Part shown: positions 3,314 through 20,712 of the stretch, one piece after another
Numbering within the stretch: position 1 is the first letter of the stretch
Layout of the letters: every line of letters begins with the position of its first letter
Source: Rhodanobacter sp.
GTDB taxonomy: Bacteria > Pseudomonadota > Gammaproteobacteria > Xanthomonadales > Rhodanobacteraceae
Assembly (NCBI GenBank): GCA_004298505.1
Contig: SCRO01000130.1
Location: 1-48,993 of the forward strand
Length of the DNA stretch: 48,993 bases
Direction: 5' to 3'
Translations under genes and position numbers: made by a program
The notes under the pieces: generated by a model
What the model was told of the DNA's origin: nothing
What the model saw: the letters and a program-made list of their open reading frames with translations, nothing else
Databases searched by the model: none

Positions 3314-3455
3314 GGGTGTAACTCCGATTGTCGGTTCCCCTGGAGCGGAACCTGGGGGTTGGGACCTCCACGTATCCCCGGCTTCGACCGCGACTGGCCC
3401 GATTTTGTTGGTGGGCGGGGCGCGGCACCCCGAAGGCGGTGCCGATACGTGTGTG
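3314..3455 (-). ncRNA. Candidate rpsB leader RNA (S2 autoregulatory type)
   Basis: The transcribed 5' region of rpsB can fold in an ordered way. An outer stem CACGTATC/GATACGTG (3451-3444 with 3376-3369) encloses a hairpin CGGCACC/GGTGCCG (3444-3438 with 3429-3423). A second hairpin GGTTCC/GGAACC (3352-3347 with 3338-3333) stands just before the GGAG ribosome site. Known rpsB leaders in gammaproteobacteria are structured and mediate repression by S2; assignment here rests on position and pairing, not on a covariance match. Confidence 0.45.
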
Positions 3456-3463
3456 GCGTTGGT

Positions 3464-3492
3464 TTGGGTGTTGTACCGCTGCGGGTTACAAT
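3464..3492 (+). promoter_or_regulatory. Candidate sigma-70 promoter for map-glnD
   Basis: TTGGGT (3464-3469), a 17 bp spacer and TACAAT (3487-3492) give a good -10 with a partial -35, about 137 bp before map. The intergenic region 3314-3628 thus appears to hold divergent promoters for the rpsB and map transcripts. Confidence 0.4.
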
Positions 3493-12477: not shown

Positions 12478-12521
12478 CGGCGCGCCGGCGTTGACAGCGC
12501 CGACGCGCCGGGCTAGTTTTT
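12478..12521 (+). terminator. Intrinsic terminator after the porin gene (overlaps the thrS promoter candidate)
   Basis: A 13-bp GC-rich stem with one mismatch (12478-12490 with 12498-12510) around a 7-nt loop, followed after six bases by TTTTT (12517-12521). It lies 20 bp past the porin stop and would end the ABC-porin operon. The loop itself contains TTGACA, part of a promoter-like sequence described separately. Confidence 0.7.
12491..12519 (+). promoter_or_regulatory. Candidate promoter for the thrS operon
   Basis: A perfect -35 TTGACA (12491-12496), 17 bp, then TAGTTT (12514-12519, 3 of 6). The start would be near 12526, so the transcript would include the 12579 leader peptide and the attenuator. 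The -10 is weak and the element is nested in the upstream terminator, so confidence is moderate. Confidence 0.4.
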
Positions 12522-12578
12522 CGCTATCCGCGACCGATCCAAGGTGGCCTGCAAGCAACTGCCGGTCGAGAGTGCGAC

Positions 12579-12599
12579 ATGGACACTACGACGTTCTGA
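12579..12599 (+). CDS. Putative threonine leader peptide of thrS (Met-Asp-Thr-Thr-Thr-Phe)
   Basis: A six-codon reading frame, ATG GAC ACT ACG ACG TTC TGA, with three consecutive threonine codons (12585-12593). A purine-rich CGAGAG lies about 9 bases upstream as a possible ribosome site. It ends 12 nt before the 5' arm of an antiterminator hairpin and 27 nt before an intrinsic terminator stem, the geometry of a ribosome-mediated attenuator. Lack of charged threonyl-tRNA would stall the ribosome on the Thr codons and favour read-through into thrS. Function is inferred from layout; three Thr codons followed by a perfect terminator are unlikely by chance but not proof. Confidence 0.65.
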   Translation: MDTTTF

Positions 12600-12610
12600 C
12601 GCTGACGCTT

Positions 12611-12649
12611 CGCGCCGAGGCACCCGAGGGCGCGCGGCGCCCTTTTTTT
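12611..12649 (+). promoter_or_regulatory. Transcription attenuator of the thrS operon (antiterminator/terminator)
   Basis: Terminator: GAGGGCGC (12626-12633), loop GCG, GCGCCCTT (12637-12644), with a T-run through 12649. Competing antiterminator: CGCGCC (12611-12616) with GGCGCG (12629-12634), which uses most of the terminator's 5' arm, so the two cannot coexist. A ribosome that reaches the leader stop codon (12597-12599) would cover the approach to 12611 and allow termination. A ribosome stalled on the Thr codons would leave 12611-12616 free. Confidence 0.65.
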
Positions 12650-12752
12650 ATTGGATTCGCATTGCCCGCCTCAAGGTCGGACAGGGGGAAAGCGAATCTC
12701 GACGACAGGTCTTCCAACAACGCACGCCGCATCGGCGTGCCGGTAATCGAAC

Positions 12753-14654
12753 ATGATCCAGATCACTCTCCCCGACGGCAGCAAAAAGCCCTTTGGACAC
12801 CCCGTCACCGTGCAGGATGTGGCCGCCTCGATTGGCGCCGGCCTGGCCAAGGCCACCCTGGCCGGCAAGGTCGATGGCAAGCTGGTCGATGCCAGCTTTC
12901 CGATTGAGCACGATGCCAGCGTGCAGATCGTCACCGAGAAAAGCTCGGAGGCGCTGGAGATCCTGCGCCACTCCACCGCACACCTGATGGGGCAGGCCGT
13001 GCAGCGGCTGTTTCCGGGCGCACAGGTCACGATCGGCCCGGTGATCGACAATGGCTTCTACTACGACTTCGCCTACGAGCGTCCGTTCACGTCCGAAGAC
13101 CTGCCGAAGATCGAGGCCGAGATGCACAAGATCGTGGCCGAAGCGCTGCCGGTGACGCGCAGCGTGAAGTCACGCGATGATGCGGTGGCGTTCTTCCGCG
13201 GCCTGGGTGAGCACTACAAGGCCGAGATCATCGAGGGCATTCCGGCCGATCAGGACCTGTCGCTGTATTCACAGGGCGAGTTCACCGATTTGTGCCGCGG
13301 CCCGCACGTGCCAAACACCGGCAAGCTGCATTCGTTCAAGCTGATGAAGGTGGCCGGCGCCTATTGGCGCGGCGATTCGAACAACGCGATGCTGAGCCGC
13401 ATCTACGGTACCGCCTGGCTCAACGACAAGGATTTGAAGGCGTACCTGTATCAGCTCGAGGAGGCCGAAAAGCGCGACCACCGCAAGATCGGCAAGCAGT
13501 TGGACCTGTTCCACCAGCAGGAAGAAAGCCCCGGCATGGTGTTCTGGCACCCGAACGGCTGGGCCATCTGGCAGCAGGTCGAGCAGTACATGCGCAACGT
13601 GTACCGCACCAGCGGTTACCAGGAAGTGCGTTGCCCGATGGTGCTGGATGTATCGCTGTGGAAAAAGTCCGGGCACTGGGACAATTACAAGGAAAACATG
13701 TTCTTCACCGAATCGGAGAAGCACACCTTCGCCTTACGGCCGATGAACTGCCCTGGCCATGTACAGATCTTCAACGAAGGCTTGCGCAGCTACCGCGACC
13801 TACCGCTGCGCTACGGCGAGTTCGGCGGCTGCCATCGCAACGAGCCGTCCGGCGCGCTGCACGGCATCATGCGCGTGCGCGCGTTCACCCAGGACGATGG
13901 CCACATCTTCTGCACGCCCGGGCAAATCGAGTCGGAGGTGACCGCTTTCCACCGGCAGGCCATGCAGGTGTACGCCGACTTCGGTTTCGAGAATATCGAC
14001 GTGGCACTGGCGCTGCGACCCGATCAGCGCATCGGCGACGACGGTGTGTGGGATCGCGCCGAGGCGGCGTTGCGTGGGGCGCTGGCGGCGGCCGGGGTGA
14101 AATGGACCGAGCTGCCCGGCGAAGGCGCCTTTTACGGTCCCAAGATCGAGTACCACATGAAGGACTCGATCGGCCGCGACTGGCAGGTGGGTACCATGCA
14201 GGTGGATTTCATGATGCCCGAGCGCCTCGGCGCCGAATATGTCGATGAACACTCGCAAAAACAGCATCCGGTGATGCTGCACCGGGCCATCGTGGGCTCG
14301 ATGGAGCGCTTCATCGGCATCCTGATCGAGCACCACGCCGGCCTGCTGCCGGCCTGGTTGGCGCCGATCCAGGCGGTGGTCCTCAACATCACCGATGCGC
14401 AGGCCGATTATGTCGGGCAGGTAACGCAAACCCTTGTCGACAAAGGTTTGCGGGTACAATCGGATTTGCGCAACGAGAAAGTCGGCTATAAAATCCGCGA
14501 ACATACAATGCAGAAAGTGCCGTATCTGCTTGTGGTCGGTGACCGCGAGAAAGAGACGGGCAGCGTTTCTGTGCGTACCCGTTCCGGCGAGGACCTGGGC
14601 AGCATGCCGCTGGCCGATTTCGTCGAGCGACTGGGGGCCGAGACCCGACGCTGA
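12753..14654 (+). CDS. thrS: Threonyl-tRNA synthetase
   Basis: Charges tRNA-Thr in the cytoplasm as a homodimeric class II enzyme. The 633-residue product has the N-terminal TGS domain ([20 protein letters not shown]), the editing domain with [17 protein letters not shown] (HxxxH) and the SAD region containing ITFG-like [15 protein letters not shown]. The class II core follows with RPMNCPGH, the motif 2 stretch [16 protein letters not shown] and motif 3 [18 protein letters not shown], then the anticodon-binding domain to the end. Length is standard. It heads the thrS-infC-rpmI-rplT-pheST-ihfA cluster and is preceded by a Thr leader peptide and attenuator. Its 3' end carries promoter-like sequences for infC and a hairpin with a T-run. 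Confidence 0.97.
14434..14460 (+). promoter_or_regulatory. Candidate internal promoter for infC within thrS
   Basis: TTGTCG (14434-14439) and TACAAT (14455-14460) are 15 bp apart; a second AT-rich TATAAA lies near 14484. E. coli has infC promoters inside thrS, so position supports the reading, but the spacing is short. Confidence 0.3.
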
Positions 14655-20635: not shown

Positions 20636-20712
20636 CGGGGCGTAGCGCAGCCTGGTAGCGCATCTGCCTGGGGGGCAGAGGGTCGTCGGTTCGAATCCGG
20701 CCGCCCCGACCA
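20636..20712 (+). tRNA. tRNA-Pro (anticodon GGG)
   Basis: A 77-nt cloverleaf. Acceptor CGGGGCG pairs with CGCCCCG and is followed by an encoded ACCA end. The D arm is GCGCAGCCTGGTAGCGC. The anticodon stem TCTGC/GCAGA holds loop CTGGGGG with anticodon GGG. The T arm has GTTCGAAT. All stems pair fully. GGG reads CCC and CCU proline codons. Confidence 0.96.

Follow-up and report, generated by a model that had tools for sequence, protein, structure and literature searches.

A probable threonine-specific leader-peptide attenuator upstream of thrS in Rhodanobacter and its relatives

The locus described here belongs to a genome of Rhodanobacter sp. (assembly GCA_004298505.1), in which the first 48,993 nucleotides of contig SCRO01000130.1 were analysed on the forward strand; this whole stretch is called the window below. 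The threonyl-tRNA synthetase (ThrRS) gene thrS stands at the head of what we take to be a thrS–infC–rpmI–rplT–pheS–pheT series, the names of thrS and of the genes behind it having been assigned from their translations. On the same strand, a porin-like gene (its identity also read off the translation) ends 121 nt 5' of the start codon of a short ORF. The elements 5' of thrS follow one another in the order promoter-like site, hairpin, short ORF, spacer, and terminator (Table 1). The promoter-like site, the 5' hairpin, and the second in-frame TGA go beyond what the first-pass annotation of this stretch had described.

Table 1. Features of the thrS upstream region and other elements located in the window.
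Feature	Position	Strand	Remarks
Promoter-like site, TTGACA-17 nt-TAGTTT	12491..12519	+	Read in sequence
5' hairpin	12545..12568	+	Upstream of leader start region; fold and covariation
Conserved GAG.GTGCGAC-type stretch	12568..12578	+	Weak Shine-Dalgarno-like GAG; directly before leader ATG
Leader peptide ORF, MDTTTF*	12579..12599	+	ATG GAC ACT ACG ACG TTC TGA; six codons
Putative regulatory Thr codons	12585-12593	+	ACT ACG ACG, within MDTTTF*
Second in-frame TGA	12603..12605	+	Codon 9, usual family stop position
Candidate antiterminator 5' arm, CGCGCC	12611..12616	+	Pairs with 12629-12634
Candidate antiterminator 3' arm, GGCGCG	12629..12634	+	Overlaps terminator 5' arm
Intrinsic terminator	12626..12649	+	Hairpin with 8-bp stem, T-run
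thrS (threonyl-tRNA synthetase)	12753..14654	+	First gene of thrS-infC-rpmI-rplT-pheS-pheT
tRNA-Pro gene	20636-20712		

The six-codon frame with three adjacent Thr codons, on which the first-pass annotation had built its proposal, is present as described, and its conservation was followed in the window's family, taken as Rhodanobacteraceae. A ThrRS search (E ≤ 1e-150) found the enzyme in 222 of 233 family genomes, and the 150 most similar places were listed, thrS being 80–95% identical in the other 149. The family sample consists of 117 of these best 150 thrS upstream regions, the window's own included. When the leader was defined as an ORF starting at G[TC]G[TC]GA[CTG]ATG, it was present in 115 of the 117 regions (114 under a stricter pattern, with L192 recognised only by the G variant of the start pattern). 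No ORF with this start was found in the two remaining regions, L030 and L194, the former being without a canonical leader. Eight sense codons make up 108 of the 115 leaders and the rest have 6, 7, 9 or 14, while the stop is TGA in 108, TAA in 4 and TAG in 3. Codon 3 encodes Thr in all 115 leaders and codon 4 in 101, a conservation that the first-pass annotation had proposed to look for; a single Thr only was seen in 12. The third base of the Thr codon at position 4 is free (ACC 57, ACG 32, ACA 8, ACT 4), which is a mark of coding. Kept in frame while TGA, TAA and TAG are exchanged at its end, this ORF is a candidate translated leader upstream of thrS, and its Thr codons at positions 3 and 4 are cognate to that gene, as would be expected of a ribosome-mediated attenuator.

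Six-codon leaders such as that of the window also occur in relatives (METTIF in L044 and METTHF in L215), so the window allele need not be dead. By pattern match alone, the leader start of the window was found in 67 of the 233 family genomes. More distant family loci were taken from 30 of 70 genomes: the leader is present in 24 of them, with a terminator behind 23 of these (none was found in L235), and in L211 and L216 its place is taken by another Thr leader, MTRTF.... The leader is absent from L219 and from L206, which comes from the same genome as L194, and two further loci (L225 and L232) are uninformative because the locus is cut.

The terminator, described by the first-pass annotation as an 8-bp hairpin followed by seven T, was confirmed. 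It reads GAGGGCGC-GCG-GCGCCCTT (12626-12644), with 8 pairs, 6 of them G-C, around a loop of 3, and the first two T of the T-run (12643-12649) lie inside the stem. Taken alone, the window yields little: scanning it for terminators gave 1, where shuffled sequence gave 0.5 on average, and the fold gave a z of −1.47. In the family sample, 114 of 115 regions have a terminator behind the leader, L193 being the sole exception, compared with 1.8% of 80-nt regions after shuffling; it was also not found in L051, L052 and L063 (Lysobacter, Luteimonas and Xanthomonas). The terminator finder is not strand-specific and passes 41 of the 115 regions on the opposite strand too, as expected of A-flanked hairpins. 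The native arms match better than arms exchanged between sequences do (z −14.9 for 114 sequences and −3.8 for 8 non-redundant ones). An intrinsic terminator thus lies between the ORF and thrS, the place it has in an attenuator.

The keeping of the frame, the variable stop, and the co-varying terminator arms are sequence evidence which points to a ribosome-mediated, threonine-specific transcription attenuator before the thrS operon, and we regard this interpretation as very probable. It is well supported for the family and probable for the window allele. Since single-sequence tests are near chance, the window alone is indecisive and conservation in relatives decides. When Thr-tRNA is charged, the ribosome would complete the leader, the terminator would form, and transcription would stop. 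A shortage of charged Thr-tRNA would make the ribosome stall on the Thr codons, and the post-stop spacer would pair with the 5' arm of the terminator; with this antiterminator formed, RNA polymerase would continue through thrS and the following genes. If these genes are co-transcribed, IF3, L35, L20, and PheRS would come under threonine-charging control. Counting against this interpretation, the leaders hold two to three Thr codons, which is few compared with classic leaders.

The antiterminator is the weakest element of the arrangement. The 6-bp pairing that the first-pass annotation had drawn is exact over all six positions in the window, and such complementarity recurs in relatives, but its role as a specific switch finds no support in covariation. 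Compensatory changes had been proposed as a check on both stems: the terminator arms are co-adapted, whereas swapping of antiterminator arms between genomes revealed no co-adaptation (z −0.58, 114 sequences; p 0.22, 0.056, 0.16 and 0.49 in non-redundant sets of 76, 38, 24 and 14). The helix of the window is not exceptional among shuffled spacers (p 0.22 for mononucleotide and 0.43 for dinucleotide shuffles), and the fold of its stretch has a z of +0.10. Over the family, p ≤ 0.05 is reached by 10 of 114 helices when mononucleotide shuffles are the reference, and by 6 when dinucleotide shuffles are; as the spacers are GC-rich, helices of such strength arise by chance. CGCCTT, the complement of the usual terminator 5' arm, occurs in 68 of 114 spacers where 5.2 are expected from shuffles (kinship uncorrected), and the best helix begins 8 or 9 nt past the stop in 48 of 114.

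Masking by the ribosome was modelled by folding with standard footprints, the ribosome being either stalled at codon 4 or placed with UGA in its A site. The mean number of antiterminator pairs was about 5.4 in the stalled state and 2.8 at the stop. This drop (2.64 pairs) is larger than the 1.83 pairs of shuffled spacers (p 0.008, kinship uncorrected); overall, pairing in the stalled state was no stronger than in shuffled spacers (5.43 against 5.33 pairs, p 0.22). Pairing reached 7.74 pairs in Rhodanobacter (42 sequences), against 6.11 in shuffles, and by genus group it was above shuffles in 4 of 11 and below in 7 (clearest in g24 and g26). The first-pass annotation had held that the spacing fits masking by a ribosome at the stop codon. 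For relatives, this idea stands in the 72 of 114 regions that lose more than one pair at the stop, and runs the other way in the 3 that gain more than one. For the window allele it fails in the model: as the stop is reached two codons sooner than usual, a ribosome on it does not mask the antiterminator. One at the second in-frame TGA would prevent the pairing. The leader of the window being two codons short, the switching quality of this allele is uncertain.

The drawn switch pairing is therefore best described as plausible but unproven. Ribosome control could also operate without it, through release, re-initiation, polymerase coupling, or another fold, and the failure of masking in the window as well as the covariation and energy tests, which do not single out the antiterminator, would agree with this. 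We nevertheless judge such a route unlikely, given the recurrence of CGCCTT, the place of the best helix past the stop, and the excess pairing in Rhodanobacter.

The leader might also sense Thr and Phe together, as pheS and pheT lie downstream and Phe is present in 57 of 115 leaders, 55 occurrences being at codon 6, where the window has TTC (12594-12596). Half of the leaders, however, are without Phe (0 of 4 in g25 and 0 of 2 in g27), and related species share ancestry; a role for codon 6 in such dual sensing appears improbable.

The threonine-specific attenuator would require transcription to begin upstream of the leader. There, the TTGACA-17 nt-TAGTTT site was read in the sequence and was not among the matches of a stricter promoter scan of the window. 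A relaxed promoter-like pattern is present in 93 of 115 family regions, compared with 0.7% of shuffles, and the distance from the end of the −10 element to the leader ATG is 54–65 nt in nearly all of these matches. Loss of the Thr codons in relatives, or transcripts starting downstream of position 12650, had been named in the first-pass annotation as evidence that would tell against its proposal; the codons are kept, and the predicted promoter-like site lies upstream of that position.

The 5' hairpin shows strong covariation among 92 sequences, with 97.5% of cells paired, double changes in 6 of 7 pairs, and a score that was equalled by none of 500 shuffles. From the window sequence alone it is non-significant (z +0.34). 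The columns of the GAG.GTGCGAC-type stretch are nearly invariant in alignment A1, and we infer a Shine-Dalgarno-like role for it. Over 12541-12578, AAGGTGG, the hairpin, and GAG[TC]GTGCGACATG follow one another, with a conservation above that of the later peptide codons. One explanation would be a split ribosome-binding site that the hairpin bridges.

The conservation of the 5' hairpin might instead suggest that ThrRS represses its own synthesis, by means of this structure or of a perfect 8-bp hairpin close to the thrS start (GCACGCCG-CAT-CGGCGTGC, 12722-12740, ending 12 nt before the ATG), the ORF being incidental. Against this, the loop of the 5' hairpin is unconserved in the alignment and no anticodon-like triplet was seen to be kept in it, and the loop of the start-proximal hairpin has just 3 nt. 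In addition, the distance from terminator to ATG is only 19–32 nt in 69 of 114 family regions, which leaves little room for an operator-like domain, and autorepression would not account for the frame, the stop, and the Thr codons of the ORF. Autorepression of this kind seems to us very improbable.

An RNA model, R1, which comprises the 5' hairpin and the leader start, was built from the 92 sequences. In the order, it matched 150 of 299 genomes: 70 of the window's family, one of family f4, one (weakly) of family f8, and for the remainder family f2; six genomes of the window's family that are listed in the order sample gave no match. Family f2 is most likely Xanthomonadaceae, because Xanthomonas, Lysobacter, and Luteimonas loci carry the same leader, and in f2 the model matched 135 of 149 genomes and left 14 without a match. 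In the class, it matched 3 of 274 genomes, all within the order and including the window's own. A genome usually has a single match, and all 73 matches for which the position of thrS was known (70 from the window's family and 3 from f2) precede that gene by 79–231 nt in the same orientation. Sixteen R1 matches were obtained in the genome of the window at E ≤ 10. Five of those beyond the thrS leader were read and did not resemble leaders, and a second target gene is therefore not proposed. The Thr leader and predicted attenuator that the first-pass annotation had seen in a single stretch thus appear to be conserved before thrS in nearly all examined members of two families.

A chance origin of the Thr ORF, with the terminator serving the upstream gene or preventing read-through, is scarcely credible. 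Neither stem clearly beats shuffles in the window alone, and the porin-like gene ends close by on the same strand. The unit nevertheless accompanies thrS in all 73 checked matches, and in 114 of 115 regions the ORF comes first, the terminator second, and thrS third; the promoter-like site is situated after the upstream gene and before the ORF, and in one Luteimonas locus (L043) a tRNA gene stands directly upstream instead.

The occurrence of Thr leaders was also followed in a set of named loci (79 of 80, one being masked), at least 8 of which are from the window's family and some from genomes counted already. Within 300 nt of thrS, 50 of the 79 have an ORF that contains at least two Thr codons in a row, with 10.1 expected from shuffles, and in 45 a terminator stands behind it. 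Three of these candidates (L098, L099, and L110) were rejected as ends of an upstream gene, and the Thr ORF of L040, which runs through a tRNA and is doubtful, was dropped from the recount. These exclusions leave 41 Thr ORFs with a terminator, of which 14 belong to the GACATG type and 27 to others. The 27 loci of other types are mostly Burkholderiales with differently built Thr leaders, such as MTPRTTTKYWE. In L211, L216, L040, and L057, the 5' element was not seen and a Thr leader beginning MTRT... or MTRGTG... takes its place.

Many of the loci L053-L109 (mostly Burkholderiales) have MTPRTTT... followed by GACGCTAGTC and then by a terminator with a CTAG loop. Pairing between the two CTAG segments could provide an antiterminator, and this Burkholderiales-type thrS leader may represent a separate RNA family. 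Neither leader type has an Rfam family at curated scores. At the gathering score, Rfam had no family at the leader of the window, where a search with E up to 10 gave nothing but weak matches, and returned tRNAs only in the loci of 8 relatives; at a relaxed threshold, L062 gave a Leu_leader match of 19.5 bits, below the cut-off of 50.

Ribosome-mediated attenuators of amino-acid operons are known from thrL–thrABC, trpL, and hisL of enterobacteria. The arrangement before thrS has in common with them a short ORF with cognate codons, a terminator, and a possible alternative pairing. It differs in that it precedes an aminoacyl-tRNA synthetase operon instead of one for biosynthesis, that the leader is usually only eight codons long and includes two or three for Thr, and that a conserved 5' hairpin precedes the ORF. 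In E. coli, thrS is controlled by a translational operator, in which ThrRS binds tRNA-like arms and blocks ribosomes; to our knowledge, this operator involves neither a leader peptide nor a terminator. The same gene is here controlled, if the proposed attenuator is correct, likewise via the mRNA leader, and no tRNA-like mimicry was noticed by eye in the two hairpin loops. The thrS T-boxes of Firmicutes bind tRNA directly, so that the charging of Thr-tRNA controls read-through. The same signal and the same control of read-through are proposed here, but a T-box covariance model gave no match in the window locus or in the loci of 8 relatives.

In textbooks, thrS is the case of a repressor-like synthetase in E. 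coli and of a tRNA-binding riboswitch in Bacillus. A leader-peptide attenuator would be a third solution for this gene, nearly fixed in two families of Xanthomonadales and with a betaproteobacterial parallel. If true, this would show how freely sensors for one signal are exchanged in evolution. Attenuation of aminoacyl-tRNA biosynthesis operons is reportedly covered, to go by its title, in an article by Lopatovskaya and colleagues.

In the literature, Lopatovskaya et al. (2010) and Vitreschak et al. (2004) appear as reference entries in the consulted parts of PMC4833913 and PMC9413887, and attenuators of amino-acid operons are treated in sections of PMC1183508. The excerpted text of PMC2965389 mentions threonyl-tRNA synthetase once, for E. 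coli. Among the matches listed in open-licence PMC literature, titles and abstract openings contained no thrS leader from these groups, and nothing was found there for the combination of thrS, leader peptide, and Xanthomonas. For Streptomyces lividans, passages of PMC8079986 report a predicted thrL before thrS, with the peptide MKRVRPFLETTPGFVPAR and two Thr. According to these passages it is likewise a two-Thr leader peptide before thrS, but the peptide is dissimilar to the Rhodanobacter leader and the S. lividans transcript is leaderless.

The Thr codons of the leaders are nearly always opened by a rare codon: codon 3 is ACT in 109 of the 115 family leaders, that of the window (12585-12587) included. 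A recount that does not presuppose ACT was made on the 41 named loci in which a terminator follows a Thr run, and the run opens with ACT in 37 of them (the exceptions being L048, L069, L078, and L081). Outside the window's family (n = 35), ACT comes first in 7 of 8 GACATG-type and in 24 of 27 other leaders, and it is thus shared as the opener by otherwise dissimilar Xanthomonadales and betaproteobacterial leaders. In thrS itself, ACT represents about 3–7% of Thr codons (29/855 in 30 Rhodanobacter loci, and 14/412, 30/582, and 8/116 in the thrS genes of three leader sets), and it accounts for 4 of 83 Thr codons in five genes of the window. As tRNA-Thr anticodons GGT and TGT were seen in the genome of the window (40 tRNA matches; 22 of 30 fetched tRNA loci scanned), ACT is probably read mainly by the GGT isoacceptor. 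The thr leader of E. coli has eight ACC codons, ACC being a major codon, according to sections of PMC1183508; the codon preference here, nearly always the rare ACT at the first Thr position, is different, and the isoacceptor is probably the same.

It is possible, though rather doubtful, that these leaders form an ancient class of thrS attenuators which extends over the order and in which a single rare codon tunes the sensor. Wobble reading of ACU by tRNA-Thr(GGU) would then determine how sensitive the switch is, and the conserved 5' hairpin of Xanthomonadales would time ribosome loading with RNA polymerase. The near-fixed rare ACT would offer a direct test of attenuator codon choice, which was modelled for E. 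coli in parts of PMC1183508.

Some minor features of the window may be added. The stretch from terminator to thrS is long in 45 of 114 family regions and short in 69, and by eye several of the long stretches have a GCACG..CGTGC-like hairpin ahead of a CAGGT Shine-Dalgarno-like site. The window carries an inverted repeat, GATTCGC/GCGAATC, between terminator and thrS (12654-12698). Elsewhere, an ordinary t44 RNA (RF00127) match over the gathering score lies at 3358-3473 (−).
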